From Motilimonas sp. E26 (lineage in GTDB: Bacteria > Pseudomonadota > Gammaproteobacteria > Enterobacterales > CBDFNC01), in contig NZ_JAIBHJ010000005.1 of the NCBI RefSeq assembly GCF_021278025.1, positions 1 through 64,000 on the forward strand: a stretch of DNA of 64,000 nt. Reading direction: 5' to 3'. Below are positions 2,629-45,548 of the stretch, one piece after another; the first letter of the stretch is position 1; each line of letters opens with the position of its first letter. A model generated the notes under the pieces. The model ran no database searches, was not told the DNA's origin, and was given only the letters and a program-made list of their open reading frames with translations. A program made the translations under genes and the position numbers.

Positions 2629-3242
2629 TCATTCGATGAGAGCAAACTGCAGTTCACCTTGGCTTTTATCTTTTAAACTCTGTTTTAATATACTCACATT
2701 ACGGCTATCAATACTTACCTTTAACCCCACCATTTCACCATAATCACTGCTGACAACTGCACCACCTAACTGAGCTAATAAAATCTCAATCCAACTAATT
2801 TGCGGATAATGGCAAAAAATATACCCTAAAGCCTGAGGAACTTTCTCAGTCACTTCAATTTGTTTCAGAGCAGCCTGTACCCCTCCACCATAGGCCCGTA
2901 CTAACCCCCCTGTCCCAAGCTTTATCCCTCCTGAATAGCGAACGACTACAGCAGTAACCTCTCCCAAGCCACTTCCTTGTAACGCCGCTAAAATAGGTTT
3001 ACCAGCTGTGCCGCTGGGCTCACCATCATCACTAAATCCAAGCTCAACACTATTATTTGGCGCAGCAGCCACAAATGCCCAACAGTGATGTCTAGCACTT
3101 GGGTGCTGCTTTTTCACCATTTGAATGAAAGCTGTTGCTTGCTCTCGCCCGTTGGTATGAGCAAGCATAGTAATAAAACGGCTTTTCTTGATTTCCTCTA
3201 CAAACTCAACTTGTTCGACAATGATAGGGTAAGGCTGAAGCA

Positions 3243-3243
<1 letters not shown>
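2629..3243 (-). CDS. yigZ: YigZ/IMPACT family protein
   Basis: A 204-residue member of the YigZ/IMPACT (UPF0029) family. The N-terminal domain carries the family stretch HCWAFV and the loop FSDDGEPSGTAG around residues 70-80, followed by VVRYSGGIKLGTGGL; the C-terminal part is the small ferredoxin-like domain. The biochemical role is not settled; eukaryotic IMPACT relatives act on translational control. Its ATG overlaps the pepQ stop by one base (TAATG), so the two are translationally coupled. The neighbours are the same as in enterics. Confidence 0.9.
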
Positions 3244-4673
<1,430 letters not shown>

Positions 4674-4837: not shown

Positions 4838-5773
4838 ATGACGAAGCCAACCGACACCTTACGAAAACATCGCAAGTACATAGCTGTACACATCCTGATT
4901 TGGGTAATCGGTTGCTTTATCTTAATCAGCTTAACTCGTGTTTCCGCCCCATTTCAGCTCATTGACTTTTACATGGAAGGACTTTTTTTCTTTGCCTGCT
5001 TAAGCACATTTATTGAGATCATGCGTTTACGCCTTGGCTGGTTAATGAGTGTAGGATGGGGCACTTTTACTTCTGCTCTCGCACTAGATGTGCTCGATGA
5101 ATTCTCACCAGAATCCCAATATATGACGCTTCACGATATACTGGAGCACTTTTTACAGTTTGGCCTCATTCTGATATGTATCGCCTTCCTTCAAGCTATT
5201 GTTACCAAAAGGCGATTAATCAAAGCGTTTGAACGTGAAATAGAGTTTAGGCGTCAGCTAGAAATTCGGCTGAAAAAAATAGCTCATCAAGATGCGTTAA
5301 CTGAGTTATTTAATCGCCGTGCTTTTTTTGAGAAATATGCAAACTTATTGATCCGCTATAAACAACCCACTCTTATCTATATTGATTTGGATAATTTCAA
5401 GCAGCTAAATGATAGCCAAGGTCACGAAGCAGGCGACGAGTACCTCGTCAACTTTGCTAGTAGACTAAAGCGAATTTTAGCTAGTCAGGGCGCCGCATTC
5501 CGATTCGGTGGCGACGAGTTCGTGGTTATTTTTGGCGGTGCCAGCGCAGAGCACTTTATAATAGAGTTGCGTAAACAACTAACACCGATAAATAAAGAAT
5601 CGGGAGTAGATCTCAGCTATGGACTCATTAACATCAGTGGAAACATTGCCGCAGACCAATTAATAAAAGAAGCCGATGAGCTAATGTATCGCAACAAACA
5701 AGAAAAAAAACAAAGACAAGCTAGGGCCAAGCAACCTAGACCAAGGCCAATACCAGACCAAGCTAAAGACTAA
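4838..5773 (+). CDS. Membrane-bound diguanylate cyclase (GGDEF domain)
   Basis: Predicted to make cyclic di-GMP from two GTP. The N-terminal 125 residues hold about four hydrophobic helices, a membrane sensor region of no recognised family. A short basic, coiled linker leads to a C-terminal GGDEF domain whose active motif FGGDEFVVIF is intact, with DLDNFKQLND upstream as the metal/GTP loop. The RxxD inhibitory site is absent, so product inhibition is doubtful. The ATG at 4838 is chosen over TTG at 4835 because AGGAGG at 4827-4832 gives better spacing. The 3' end overlaps the convergent di-haem gene by 4 bp. The basic Pro/Arg-rich tail is poorly conserved in this family. Confidence 0.9.
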   Translation: MTKPTDTLRKHRKYIAVHILIWVIGCFILISLTRVSAPFQLIDFYMEGLFFFACLSTFIEIMRLRLGWLMSVGWGTFTSALALDVLDEFSPESQYMTLHDILEHFLQFGLILICIAFLQAIVTKRRLIKAFEREIEFRRQLEIRLKKIAHQDALTELFNRRAFFEKYANLLIRYKQPTLIYIDLDNFKQLNDSQGHEAGDEYLVNFASRLKRILASQGAAFRFGGDEFVVIFGGASAEHFIIELRKQLTPINKESGVDLSYGLINISGNIAADQLIKEADELMYRNKQEKKQRQARAKQPRPRPIPDQAKD

Positions 5774-41121: not shown

Positions 41122-41966
41122 TGGCGCAATACAGCACACGCATAACCGTATTAGCAGACAATATCGCAACACCGCCTTTGCTCAGCGAACATGGCTTTGC
41201 TGTATTAATTGAACGCGATCAAGAACGAATTTTATTTGATACGGGGCAAGGGCTCGCCCTATTTGAAAACGCAGATCAACTCGGCATCCCCTTAGACAAC
41301 CTAACAGCCATTGCACTTAGCCATGGTCACTACGACCATACCGGCAACCTTGCTCAACTATTGGATTTAAATCCGCACTGTCGGTTATATCTGCATCCTG
41401 ACTGCATCATTGAGCGATATGTGTTGCACGATAACCAGCCAGTGAAAATGATCGGCATGCCTAAATCGGCCAAACAAGCGATCGCCAAGCACGATCCAGC
41501 CTTGATCCACTTAACTGATCAAGCATGCAAGCTCACAGCAGAAATCAGCTTAACTGGCACTATCCCCAAATTTCACCCCTTGGAAAATACCAGCGGTCCG
41601 TTCTATTTAGATCAAAAAAGATTGCATATTGATCAACTAGGGGATGATCAAAGCTTATGGCTAATAACTAAACACGGCATCTGCGTGATCACGGGCTGTT
41701 GTCACACAGGTTTAATCAACACCTTGGCGTTTATCCAGCAACAAGAGCCAAACGCCCCACTAACTCACTTAATCGGCGGCCTACATTTAGCTAACGCGAC
41801 GAGTGAGCGGCTTGATGCCAGTGTCCAATATCTTCATCAACAACCTTGGCAGCACTTGTACCTTTCCCACTGCACGGGCGCACGAGCCACTGATGCTATC
41901 GGTCAACACCCCTCACTGATAAATAAAGTCACATCTACTTATGTGGGACGAGTCATAAACGTTTAG
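41121..41966 (+). CDS. MBL-fold metallo-hydrolase, TM0207/RFAP-synthase-like
   Basis: A 281-residue metallo-beta-lactamase fold protein with the metal motif SHGHYDHTG near residue 70, ITGCCHTG near residue 192 and a later GGLHLANA. This set matches the 7,8-dihydropterin-6-methyl-4-(beta-D-ribofuranosyl)aminobenzene 5'-phosphate synthase-like group, a name that reflects an old archaeal assignment, so the reaction here is unknown. These genes recur beside NifX-like and DUF134 genes. It is coupled to the PaaI gene and ends before a hairpin terminator. Confidence 0.82.
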   Translation: MAQYSTRITVLADNIATPPLLSEHGFAVLIERDQERILFDTGQGLALFENADQLGIPLDNLTAIALSHGHYDHTGNLAQLLDLNPHCRLYLHPDCIIERYVLHDNQPVKMIGMPKSAKQAIAKHDPALIHLTDQACKLTAEISLTGTIPKFHPLENTSGPFYLDQKRLHIDQLGDDQSLWLITKHGICVITGCCHTGLINTLAFIQQQEPNAPLTHLIGGLHLANATSERLDASVQYLHQQPWQHLYLSHCTGARATDAIGQHPSLINKVTSTYVGRVINV

Positions 41967-42103
41967 TAGATAATAATTTGGCGAGCGCTAAAAGCTACCT
42001 TTAAGGTGGGATAAGTGAGTTTTCTACTGCTGAATGCGGTTTAAGCTTAAAATAGCCCAAACGGCGTCATAGAGATCTGCTGTGACAAACAAGCTCACTT
42101 TAT

Positions 42104-42140
42104 AAAAAAGCGTTTATTGGTTAACCAATAACGCTTTTTT
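42104..42140. terminator. Bidirectional rho-independent terminator
   Basis: AAAAAAGCGTT(T)ATTGG, then TTAACCAATAACGCTTTTTT: a near-perfect stem with a T run on both strands, serving the MBL gene on the plus strand and the alpha/beta hydrolase gene on the minus strand. Confidence 0.9.
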
Positions 42141-42158
42141 ACACTCAGTTATTAGTCT

Positions 42159-43634
42159 TTAAAAGTGCTGATTCAACATCACTGGATGCGGCTTAAGCGC
42201 TGTGTTACCTGCGCTACGCGCTAATGTGGAACCATCACATACTAGCTCATTACTCGCTGAACTTGGATCTAATAGGTAAGCTGTACTGGCATTATCAATA
42301 CAGCGATTACCACGATAACTAAAGCCATGCTCCACAATATTTTCCACTCTGATCAATCGGGTTAAGCTAGCAAAGCTTTCGCTCATTGCTTCAGTCCAAA
42401 TATAAGGAGTACGCGGATCATACTGGCCACCGAGGATCAACACAGGCTGTTGTAACTTAGCATCCATGTATTCAACTGGCTGCACTGGATCTAACTGACC
42501 AGGCCAATCAGCACACATACCCGCATTAGCATAATTAACAACACCAAAGATACCCGACGCTTGTATATAGTTAGCGTAAGCGTTAGCGACATCATTAGTT
42601 GACAATGCGCTTGAACCATCAGCACAAACTACCGCTGTAAACATCGCGTTGGAACGCTGAGCATCTACGGGATCATTTGCTTGATTCCAAGATGTTGAGT
42701 CTACAAGACGCTTTAATAATGCTACGTTACCATTATCAAGTAACTCAAACACACCTGGTTTTTGATGCTGCCAGTAGCCATAGACTTCCAGTGATCGCAG
42801 CGAATATAAAGCATCAAGGGCTGTATTAACGGAAAGATCGCCATCAAGCCCTTGAAATACACCATTAGCATCTAATATGCTGACACCACTGATTAGCGCT
42901 TGCTTTCTGGCAACAGTACCAAGGCGATATTCCGCTACAACATCATATCCGGCCGCATTATCTTGCGCGATGTCGATATAGTTTAAGGTAGTTGGTGACA
43001 TAGGAGAATCAAGGATCAACGCACGAACCCGCTCTGGAAAAAAATCAGCGTAAACGCTGCCAACACGGGTACCGTAGGAATAACCTAAAAAGCTAATTTG
43101 CTCTTCGCCTAAATGGGCGCGTAACGCATCGATGTCTTTCACTAAGGTATTAGTGCTAATATTCACCGCAGACTTTGTATTAAACTCATCACATGTATTC
43201 ACATTGTTGGCCAGCTCAACCGCACATTGCTTTAACTCTTTGGCATAGGCACTCTGACCTGAGCCACGTGGATCTAACGCCACAATATCAAAACGCTCAA
43301 CAATTGCTTGATCAAACAAGCCTGCATTAACCATCCAAGCCAAACTAGCTTGCGCTTCTTGACCAGGGCCCCCAAAATTGACAAATAAGGTACCGATTCG
43401 ATTGTTAGTATCCGTTGCTTTATGAATGGCATAAAACACTTTTACTTTGCTGCCGTCATCATTAATGTAGCTAGCAGGCACTTCTAATTGCTGGCATTCC
43501 AAGCCAGTCGCACATATTGGTGAGTCTTCTGACTTATCGGCCCCAACACTAAAGCCGTCGCCACCGCCACCGCCGCCACAGCCAGCGAGTAAAATGGCCG
43601 ACACTGCACTTGCTAATATTGCTTTTTTCATCAT
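42159..43634 (-). CDS. Lipoprotein alpha/beta hydrolase, S33 (proline iminopeptidase/tripeptidyl aminopeptidase-like)
   Basis: A 491-residue exported lipoprotein: lipobox LLAGC (Cys19) then a glycine run. The alpha/beta-hydrolase fold has the nucleophile elbow LGYSYGTRVG near residue 186, the Asp in LGGQYDPRTP and the His in EHGFSYRG, plus TAP-like C-terminal domain features and paired Cys. It likely trims peptides at the cell surface or in the periplasm. It has its own near-consensus promoter (43676-43704). A lux-type site lies further upstream but a small ORF stands between. Confidence 0.87.
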   Translation of the reverse strand: MMKKAILASAVSAILLAGCGGGGGGDGFSVGADKSEDSPICATGLECQQLEVPASYINDDGSKVKVFYAIHKATDTNNRIGTLFVNFGGPGQEAQASLAWMVNAGLFDQAIVERFDIVALDPRGSGQSAYAKELKQCAVELANNVNTCDEFNTKSAVNISTNTLVKDIDALRAHLGEEQISFLGYSYGTRVGSVYADFFPERVRALILDSPMSPTTLNYIDIAQDNAAGYDVVAEYRLGTVARKQALISGVSILDANGVFQGLDGDLSVNTALDALYSLRSLEVYGYWQHQKPGVFELLDNGNVALLKRLVDSTSWNQANDPVDAQRSNAMFTAVVCADGSSALSTNDVANAYANYIQASGIFGVVNYANAGMCADWPGQLDPVQPVEYMDAKLQQPVLILGGQYDPRTPYIWTEAMSESFASLTRLIRVENIVEHGFSYRGNRCIDNASTAYLLDPSSASNELVCDGSTLARSAGNTALKPHPVMLNQHF

Positions 43635-43675
43635 ATCCCTATTTCTTATCTGTTATAAACGATAAAGTCACCAGT

Positions 43676-43704
43676 AAAATACCCATAGCGACATATTATG
43701 TCAA
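43676..43704 (-). promoter_or_regulatory. Promoter of the S33-type lipoprotein gene
   Basis: TTGACA (43699-43704), 17-bp spacer, TATTTT (43676-43681) on the minus strand: perfect -35, ideal spacing and a good -10, about 40 bases upstream of the start at 43634. Confidence 0.75.
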
Positions 43705-43805
43705 CACTGATTATTTATATTTATTTGACTTAAATCATGATTTTTTAATCTATCTTGCTGCAACCCATGTCATTCACAGACTACTCTTATTCCTAGCCAT
43801 ACTGA

Positions 43806-43940
43806 CTAACCCCGTTTAAATAAGTAATACCTGCTTATCTCGCCCAATTTAAAGCGAGAAGGTTGCCAATTCTTTAGCTTTCTAGCATGGAAAATAATCA
43901 TTACGACTGAAAAATTGTCAGAGAATACACGTTCAGGCAT
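43806..43940 (-). CDS. Candidate 44-residue protein downstream of a lux-box promoter
   Basis: A short open frame between luxR and the S33 gene. The ATG at 43940 has AAAAGG with 5-7 bases spacing and lies about 20 bases past the predicted transcription start of the lux-box promoter. The product is basic, with MPERVFSDNFSVVMIIFHAR at the start and a tail rich in Lys, Arg and Tyr (RYYLFKRG). No known family is recognised, and it is not LuxI-like. Position and signals favour a real small gene, but codon evidence is thin; a remnant of a lost luxI is the alternative. Confidence 0.45.
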   Translation of the reverse strand: MPERVFSDNFSVVMIIFHARKLKNWQPSRFKLGEISRYYLFKRG

Positions 43941-43967
43941 GTTTACCTTTTAAGTAGAACAGCAGTG

Positions 43968-44014
43968 AATATATATTTTTATTACGGATTTTTAACCTGT
44001 CAGATAAAGCAGGT
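43968..44014 (-). promoter_or_regulatory. Lux-box-like dyad and -10 element (putative LuxR-activated promoter)
   Basis: The 20-bp dyad at 43995-44014 (plus strand ACCTGTCAGATAAAGCAGGT) matches 14 of 20 positions of the Vibrio fischeri lux box, including all outer arms. On the minus strand 21 bases separate it from TATATT (43968-43973), the same gap as in the luxI promoter, and no good -35 is present, as expected when LuxR replaces it. It starts 36 bp beyond the luxR stop. Confidence 0.6.
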
Positions 44015-44050
44015 TTATAGTTACTTGATCAAAAAGTGAATAAACTGACT

Positions 44051-44776
44051 TTAGAAAGAAGGGGAAATAAGGCCTGACATAATCGCTTTAGATATGGCTT
44101 GATACCGGTTTGACGCATTTAGTTTGCTACATACATTCGATAAATGGAAAATGACCGTGCGCTCAGCGCAGCCAATAATATGAGATATTTCCCAGGCACT
44201 TTTTCCCTCTGAAGCCCAGAGCAAACATTCATTCTCGCGCTTAGTTAATTTTATTTTTTGCTGATGCGTTTTATTATTAATGCGATGAATCGCTTCCTGT
44301 AACGCGGGAGTAAGCAACTGCATAATGGGTAAAATATCGTTAAGCTTTGCTTCATCATAGTCAGAGGATAGCGCCATACTTAGCATACCAAATTCGCCCT
44401 GCATACCATGTACAGGGATAGTAAACCCGGTCTTTAATCCAATTGAGGCTGCTTCTTTCATCACATCAACACCGCCCTTTTTCTTTGGGCTCACTTTTTG
44501 GATATGTGACCAAGTTGCGGGTAAGTAGTTGTCATATGAATAAGCAACCACTGGATCAAGATTAATCAACTTTTCTTCGTCATATGATTTACGCCATTCA
44601 CTTGGGTAATTATCCACAATAAAGGTGCTTCTCTTAGTAATGCTTTGCACAGAAGAGAGTCCAAATAGGTAATACTCAAGTTCAATCAAAGCTGCCGCTT
44701 TTTCCAATACTAGGTTAATAGCTTCAAACGTATCTGCACGTTTGAGCTCGAGGATTAAATCTAACACAGCATTCAC
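44051..44776 (-). CDS. LuxR-type acyl-homoserine-lactone receptor/regulator
   Basis: About 241 residues. The N-terminal autoinducer-binding domain keeps the family's ligand pocket residues: Trp and Tyr in SEWRKSYDEE, Asp-Pro in NLDPVV, Trp in PATWSHI and the Gly of GEFGMLS. The C-terminal LuxR helix-turn-helix is in LTKRENECLLWASEGKSAW and ERTVIFHLSNVCSKL. The likely start is GTG 44776 with AAGG 8 bases upstream; TTG 44797 lacks a site. No luxI synthase is in the window, so it is an orphan (solo) receptor here. A lux-box-like site lies just past its stop. Confidence 0.86.
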   Translation of the reverse strand: MNAVLDLILELKRADTFEAINLVLEKAAALIELEYYLFGLSSVQSITKRSTFIVDNYPSEWRKSYDEEKLINLDPVVAYSYDNYLPATWSHIQKVSPKKKGGVDVMKEAASIGLKTGFTIPVHGMQGEFGMLSMALSSDYDEAKLNDILPIMQLLTPALQEAIHRINNKTHQQKIKLTKRENECLLWASEGKSAWEISHIIGCAERTVIFHLSNVCSKLNASNRYQAISKAIMSGLISPSF

Positions 44777-44888
44777 ACTCTTTACCTTGTGCTTCAAAGG
44801 AGGACGTAACTTATCATATAACCTCAGCTTTGTTTGAGCCTATCGTCATAATGTGAATGATCTTTACAGTAAAATGATCGCTAAACAA

Positions 44889-45416
44889 CTACCCTTTACG
44901 CCCATGTTTAATCCGACTCAATGCCACTGGGGTGATCCCTAAATAACGGGCGATGTCGTTCTGGGTAATGCGATGGAGTAAATCCGGTTGGTGCTGCATT
45001 AATTGCTGATAACGGGTGGTGGCATCTAAACACAGAAACTCGTATTCACGACGCTCCTTTTTCTGTGCCAGCTTGATTAATGATGCGAGCATAAAGCGAC
45101 TTAATTCAAGATCATCTAAGGTATGTTGGTAAAGCGAATCAAAGTCGACCTTGACCAACGCTGCTGGCTCTAAGGCCAGCAAACTAAAAGTACAGGGCTC
45201 ACGCTCAAATACCGCTGATAAATTCGTGATCACATCACCTTCAGCAATAAAAGACTTCACCAGCTCTTTACCGTCTTGGCATAAATAATAAGCTTTAAAT
45301 AACCCTTGTTTAACAAAATATAACGCGTCTTCCATCTCGCCTTGACGGAATAAGTGCTGCCCCGCAGCTAAATTCACTTGGCGGCCATGCTCGATGACGT
45401 ATTGTTTAATATCCAT
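44889..45416 (-). CDS. Crp/Fnr-family transcription regulator
   Basis: A 175-residue protein with an N-terminal cyclic-nucleotide-binding fold (AAGQHLFRQGEMEDALYFV, residues 18-36, and the long dimer helix near 120) and a short C-terminal HTH (ITQNDIARYLGITPVALSRI). It lacks the Fnr Cys cluster. It is divergent from an SDR gene with 132 bp between starts, so it probably controls the SDR-TVP38 pair. GGAG lies 10 bases upstream of the ATG at 45416. Confidence 0.85.
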   Translation of the reverse strand: MDIKQYVIEHGRQVNLAAGQHLFRQGEMEDALYFVKQGLFKAYYLCQDGKELVKSFIAEGDVITNLSAVFEREPCTFSLLALEPAALVKVDFDSLYQHTLDDLELSRFMLASLIKLAQKKERREYEFLCLDATTRYQQLMQHQPDLLHRITQNDIARYLGITPVALSRIKHGRKG

Positions 45417-45548
45417 ATTATTTCTACTCCGCAACCATCACAAATACGAACCAAGACAATGCTCCGATCTATTATCAGCGTTTTAACCTAGGTTAATTAC
45501 CTCGGCTAACTTTCTACTTACAGTGAGCTTAAATCGAAAGGAGCTCAC

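Follow-up and report, generated by a model that had tools for sequence, protein, structure and literature searches.

In the window analysed here, a 64,000-nucleotide stretch of the genome of the marine bacterium Motilimonas sp. E26, a LuxR solo is followed by what is most likely its own lux box, and we tentatively propose, with confidence a little short of even, that the lux-box promoter of this LuxR solo controls a neighbouring hydrolase gene by read-through. In this scheme, whose direction of gain, binding, ligand, transcription and target we infer, a probably horizontally acquired LuxR solo would have brought its own lux-box promoter with it. Bound to an acyl-homoserine lactone of other bacteria, LuxR would occupy the box at 43995-44014 and, judging from the geometry, recruit RNA polymerase to the TATATT hexamer 21 nt away. 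The transcript would head leftward through an untranslated leader, in which a 44-codon open reading frame (ORF) appears to be a chance occurrence, and would enter the lipoprotein-like hydrolase gene at 43634, so that this gene would have a second, signal-dependent promoter beside a sigma-70-like one. The features are arranged as follows.

42159-43634, minus strand: lipoprotein-like alpha/beta hydrolase gene (491 aa; Abhydrolase_1 and TAP-like domains), 360 nt past the lux box
43676-43704, minus strand: sigma-70-like promoter of the hydrolase gene (TTGACA, 17 nt, TATTTT), overlapping a 13-base palindrome
43806-43940, minus strand: 44-codon ORF, which exists as a frame and is unsupported as a gene
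43946-43951, minus strand: AAAAGG, a possible ribosome-binding site read from the sequence, 5 nt ahead of the ATG
43968-43973, minus strand: -10-like hexamer TATATT, 21 nt beyond the lux box
43995-44014, minus strand: lux-box dyad, the window's best site by a matrix of relatives' boxes
44051-44797, minus strand: luxR-type regulator gene (248 aa, TTG start as listed; PF03472 and GerE helix-turn-helix PF00196)
43728-44896, no strand: AT-rich segment (38% G+C) with luxR, box and ORF, missing between the homologous hydrolase gene and crp of congener G002

The luxR-type gene runs from 44797 to 44051 on the minus strand, and the dyad ACCTG-N10-CAGGT (minus-strand sequence ACCTGCTTTATCTGACAGGT) lies 36 nt past its stop codon. 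Further along the minus strand, 21 nt separate the dyad from TATATT (43973-43968), 16 nt separate TATATT from AAAAGG (43951-43946) and 5 nt separate AAAAGG from the ATG at 43940, which stands 54 nt from the box and opens the ORF that ends at 43806. A preliminary description of this DNA had reported a dyad just past the stop of an orphan luxR gene, TATATT after a 21-base gap like that of the luxI promoter, and then AAAAGG and the 44-codon ORF, all of which we found in the sequence; its count of 14 of 20 positions matching the Vibrio fischeri lux box was reproduced.

The regulator protein matched PF03472 (104.5 bits) and PF00196 (63.4 bits), both above cut-off. Its gene is uninterrupted, and its autoinducer-binding domain was the sole PF03472 match of the genome. 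The protein retains W68, Y72, D81, P82 and W96, invariant across 10 aligned proteins including its own, as well as ERT-x-x-FH in the helix-turn-helix; we take W68 and Y72 to be the equivalents of W57 and Y61 in the family alignment. The predicted ligand is an acyl-homoserine lactone that would be made by other bacteria. The best relatives, 40-49% identical, came from Pseudoalteromonas, Vibrio, Aliivibrio and Psychromonas. In the scan of named genomes, the single LuxR protein as query gave no relative and a 7-row alignment gave 76 loci. A tree of 44 LuxR proteins placed the window protein on a long branch in an open group of 31 rows, mostly Vibrionaceae, and the LuxR relatives present in phage and plasmid searches were all below 60% identity.

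The search for LuxI elsewhere in the genome, which the preliminary description had proposed, gave no PF00765 protein above cut-off, in a setting where none of 14 control genomes matched either and a separate LuxI profile recovered LuxI in 30 of 37 related loci. The one match, on another contig, scored 23.2 bits against a cut-off of 24 and is a PEP-CTERM/exosortase-associated acyltransferase (TIGR03694, 241 bits; L066 5434-6327, G000:C24). The gene beside it presumably encodes a PEP-CTERM protein, going by its motif. Acyltransferases of the TIGR03694 type can mislead luxI searches. LuxM/AinS-type synthases (PF17327) gave 0 matches in this genome and likewise 0 in the control genomes. As far as PF00765 goes, the regulator is a LuxR solo with conserved ligand-pocket residues, which upholds the term orphan.

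The next question is whether the dyad is a lux box. It is a 20-bp dyad in the CTG-N10-CAG frame, and TATATT stands exactly 21 nt from it, where LuxR-type promoters have about 21 nt. When the 416-bp spacer was dinucleotide-shuffled 2000 times, the exact arms never occurred, and across the whole window they are expected by chance 0.05 times; arms with up to two mismatches were found at 17 sites in the window against 19.7 expected, so solely the exact dyad is exceptional. We built a matrix from six different boxes of related luxR/luxI loci together with the V. fischeri box. With this matrix the dyad ranked first among 63,981 window positions at 11.2 bits (runner-up, 5.7), and it scored under all seven training boxes (22.8-31.8 bits). 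In the 87 other loci (766,842 positions), 32 sites scored at least as high, seven of them training boxes or their copies; 30 of the 32 were no more than 170 nt from luxI or luxR, and the other two, both in L060, were 5.9 kb off. The spacing was assessed on 29 of these sites, many of them orthologues and hence not independent, and 18 had a -10 element matching at least five of six positions at exactly 21 nt on one side or the other. Within the spacer, matches of at least 5/6 to TATAAT occurred at 6 of 411 positions, which gives the background rate, and the AT-rich region held 8 promoter-like sites against 4.5 expected (sd 1.8).

It is improbable, in our estimate, that the dyad is something other than a lux box, namely a chance match, a LexA-type operator or a hairpin. 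A match of at least 14/20 to the V. fischeri box, on either strand, was reached in 15 of 2000 dinucleotide shuffles of the spacer. Exact-arm sites numbered 3 in this genome and 2, 4 and 5 in three congeners (1, 0, 1 and 1 for the reversed pattern), and three of these four genomes have no luxR at E 1e-20; exact dyads are not enriched in the genome that bears luxR. The LexA operator has the CTG-N10-CAG frame as well, and one exact-arm site of this genome resembles such an operator ahead of genes that we take to be umuDC-like. The arms by themselves prove nothing, and the weight rests on adjacency to luxR and on spacing: the site is 36 nt from luxR, has the best matrix score of the window and is followed by a -10 element at the canonical distance. 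As for a hairpin, the plus strand as RNA folds to -9.5 kcal/mol, a value equalled by 10 of 200 shuffles, but the minus strand folds weakly (-6.8 kcal/mol, equalled by 23 of 200 shuffles), and a terminator scan called nothing at the dyad on either strand. A hairpin or terminator was dismissed on these grounds, and the dyad is most likely a true lux box.

What a promoter at this box would transcribe was considered first for the 44-codon ORF, which according to the preliminary description the box drives and which, it suggested, could be a quorum-controlled small protein. The AAAAGG is well spaced from the ATG, and the 54 nt between box and ATG are close to the 55 nt that separate box and luxI where Vibrio sp. 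HA2012 has the two genes in tandem. The codon score of the ORF, however, was -0.22 per codon, where a non-coding model gave -0.35 (sd 0.16) and a coding model +0.34 (sd 0.15); a fraction of 0.217 of 5000 non-coding draws scored as high and 0 of 5000 coding draws as low. The ORF scored under all five 44-codon luxR stretches examined (-0.07 to 0.25) and all 11 hydrolase stretches of that length (0.14 to 0.63). Its length is within chance: among 2000 shuffles of the 360 nt past the box, an ORF of at least 44 codons starting within 150 nt of the box arose in 125 with ATG and in 242 with any start. Relatives were sought in 394 genomes of the order, a search that so short a query (44 aa) may escape, and the only match at E 0.01 was in its own genome; the best plasmid match had E 7, and there was no Pfam or NCBIfam match. 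With non-coding-like codon use, no relative in the other 393 genomes and an unexceptional length, the small-protein claim found no support. The ORF looks like chance, and that the box serves a small protein is very unlikely.

The same description had also offered the ORF as a possible trace of a lost synthase. A LuxI profile run on the six frames of the spacer gave a best E of 0.59, where a same-sized stretch of the intact HA2012 tandem locus (L094) gave 2e-32, and tblastn of LuxI proteins gave a best E of 0.03 over 14 residues. Past the box we thus detected no luxI and no remains of it, and a LuxI remnant in the spacer was rejected. A structured leader RNA was likewise rejected (z -1.14; 15 of 100 shuffles fold equally well), and the single match to a known RNA family in 41900-45500, to a microRNA family and under the cut-off, was taken as chance.

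A box without a gene to serve could be a relic, the remainder of a luxR-luxI locus that lost its synthase gene by deletion; LuxR might then still act on it, with nothing useful transcribed. We examined 37 of the 76 named loci for the position of LuxI: 5 have it in tandem downstream of luxR, 17 in convergent and 8 in divergent orientation, and in the other 7 the flanks examined yielded none. One of these seven, L093, shares its contig with a separate LuxI locus (L091). LuxI thus stands beside luxR in 30 of the 37. The statement that the ORF sits in place of luxI is weakened by these counts, in which luxI was found in that tandem position in five loci. In V. proteolyticus (L099), a lux box lies 32 nt past luxR with no LuxI within about 4 kb, and the gene past the box, which we take to be MOSC-like, is the one that V. 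mexicanus and V. aestivus have on the far side of luxI; in V. proteolyticus luxI was likely lost and the box left behind. Vibrio sp. HA2012 has, in L094, a second luxR (2958-3707, minus strand) with a lux box at 2925-2944, 13 nt past its stop, and no luxI on the box side, which matches the arrangement in the window. The likely loss of luxI with the box kept in V. proteolyticus and the box of the second HA2012 luxR make a relic the main rival, although a box right after a luxR stop, as in HA2012, favours relic and read-through equally. In 14 convergent Vibrio loci, moreover, the box is found on the far side of luxI, with a good -10 that faces away from luxR at a distance of 21 nt, as in the window. 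Against a relic stand the missing LuxI trace in the spacer, the outward -10 of V. proteolyticus itself, which is poor (3/6), and the intact arms, spacing and -10 of the window box, which go beyond what a relic requires. We regard a relic as a real but doubtful possibility.

Lux-like boxes were also noted at three further loci. In Shewanella nanhaiensis (L135), a lux-like box (14/20) at luxR stop +32 leads into a long region that holds no convincing ORF and extends to a probable terminator; the luxI-like gene of this locus is on the opposite side. In L063 (G291), a lux-like palindrome, ACCTGTCTGATCAGACAGTA, stands at luxR stop +11 and precedes a codirectional 112-aa lipoprotein-like ORF. In L060, two lux-box-like sites 39 bp apart (12561 and 12600) lie 5.9 kb from the luxR of G119, with minus-strand ORFs of 546 and 887 aa in between, and precede an apparent short minus-strand ORF; this locus is possibly a quorum-controlled peptide cluster.

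The outward-facing -10 elements mark a conserved stretch in Vibrio. Of the 17 convergent loci, 14, every one from Vibrio, carry a -10 (TATTAT or TATGAT; TAAAAT in one) exactly 21 nt from the luxI lux box, on the side that faces away from luxI. The 112-134 nt past this element are conserved in the 14 loci with 62% mean identity; TCAGTTG or TTAGTTG is found in 14/14, and a hairpin with a T-run end in 12/14, counted by eye. The sequences suggest a conserved small-RNA candidate of about 120 nt, transcribed away from luxI off the same lux box.

About 5397-5634, plus strand: small-RNA candidate in L080, L082-L084, L086-L090, L092, L096, L101, L104 and L107; also in L168 and L169

On two predicted helices, the covariation score was 0.328 against 0.234 in shuffles, a value that none of the 500 shuffles attained; pairs with changes on both sides were no commoner than in shuffles (176 of 500), and there are none in the first helix. 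In the 8 of the 14 loci where Rfam was searched, no family reached its cut-off on this stretch. A model of the candidate matched 14 of 247 Vibrionaceae genomes, of which 12 appear by score to be training species and two, G586 and G544, are not, and all 14 places were beside a LuxI gene. A lux box was found at 13 of the matches by script, and that of L168 is readable in the sequence, with TAAAAT at 21. The best model match in 42100-45000 of the window, 11.9 bits at E 0.25 on the opposite strand, gave no homologue there. No description of such a Vibrio RNA was found in a literature search that included parts of PMC11443567 and PMC3496712.

The history of the segment was read from the genus, in which luxR is present in one of four genomes, its own. 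Two sister strains, Motilimonas sp. Spo1_1 and 1_MG-2023 G1M02, are named in PMC13182010, where OrthoANI among these two and E26 is 98.32-98.72%. In congener G002, which has no luxR, a homologous hydrolase gene (61% identical) adjoins crp with 30 nt between the matched parts, and 43728-44896 is missing. This segment of about 1.17 kb has 38% G+C, which puts it at the 0.2 percentile among stretches of its size in the window. Congener G001, 96% and 99% identical on the two sides, lacks 41988-44885, everything between hydrolase and luxR inclusive, and has roughly 140 nt of different sequence there. This filler has a 15-nt AT-rich word in common with 43966-43980 (2 of 200 shuffles score equal), which is only a hint that it is what remains of the segment. 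On the simplest reading, luxR was imported with its box beside a pre-existing hydrolase gene and was probably acquired horizontally; loss of the segment from G002 instead of gain here is conceivable.

The hydrolase gene is the likeliest target of the lux box. By sequence, the hydrolase's nearest solved structures are Hip1 and carboxylesterase A, and it scored 28.2 bits against the proline iminopeptidase family TIGR01249 (cut-off 259.75). The terminator scan listed none on the minus strand between the lux box and the hydrolase gene, and it is for this reason that read-through control of the hydrolase is favoured. The box as the best site of the window, the location of 30 of 32 comparable sites near luxI or luxR, the -10 at 21 nt, the conserved pocket and helix-turn-helix residues, and the hydrolase beside crp without luxR in G002 all argue in the same direction. 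A precedent may be seen in LuxR solos of the OryR/XccR type, which control an adjacent peptidase gene according to excerpts of PMC10134790 and PMC4338825.

Other features speak against read-through. The leader of 360 nt is long, and the box matches at 14 of 20 positions only and falls under every training box. The promoter-like sequence TTGACA-17-TATTTT before the hydrolase lies outside the segment, in DNA 76% alike in luxR-less G002; with this promoter-like sequence of its own, the hydrolase would not need new control. By tblastn (E up to 1e-3, all loci examined), the hydrolase was found outside its own genome in luxR-less congener loci alone, and no LuxR locus of other genera has it as a neighbour. 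A 13-base palindrome, GACATAwTATGTC (43690-43702), covers the -35 of the hydrolase promoter; it recurs ahead of the G002 hydrolase as well as between acyltransferase-like and esterase-like genes at G001:C55:33288-33333, and may be an operator.

The locus offers a compact case of a signal receptor without a recognisable synthase and with a likely operator still alongside. Since the luxR-less site is visible in a congener, the gain of eavesdropping and the choice of a target are testable on one gene. If the Vibrio small-RNA candidate is transcribed, the classical LuxR/LuxI feedback loop would include an RNA. More speculatively, and with low confidence, the outward lux-box promoter could be an old functional part, and no by-product, of such loci, one that drives a conserved small RNA divergent from luxI in Vibrio and that here, after loss of luxI, drives a lineage-specific regulatory leader or RNA tying a cell-surface hydrolase to the signals of other species.

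Compared with known systems, the window resembles the OryR, XccR, PsoR and PipR solos with pip in that a LuxR solo adjoins an alpha/beta-hydrolase, peptidase-like gene (PMC10134790, in part). Plant-associated solos with pip carry W57M and Y61W in the ligand pocket, according to excerpts of PMC4338825, whereas the window LuxR has the canonical W68 and Y72 in those places. With this canonical pocket, and a hydrolase that by its TIGR01249 score is no pip, a plant-associated solo with proline iminopeptidase was discarded as a model. In Aliivibrio fischeri (L098), the LuxR is 41% identical and a 20-bp dyad is likewise 21 nt from a -10 (TATAGT) on the luxI side, but luxI is divergent from luxR there, whereas the window box is 3' of luxR with no synthase found. 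In Vibrio sp. HA2012, whose luxR and luxI are in tandem (L094), the box follows luxR by 73 nt on the same strand and precedes the next start codon by 55 nt, as against 36 and 54 nt in the window; what comes after the box is luxI there and only a non-coding-looking ORF here. V. proteolyticus (L099) shares a box shortly past the luxR stop (32 nt) and no LuxI within about 4 kb, and differs in its poor outward -10, probable terminator and convergent gene, where the window has a good -10 and a codirectional hydrolase gene.
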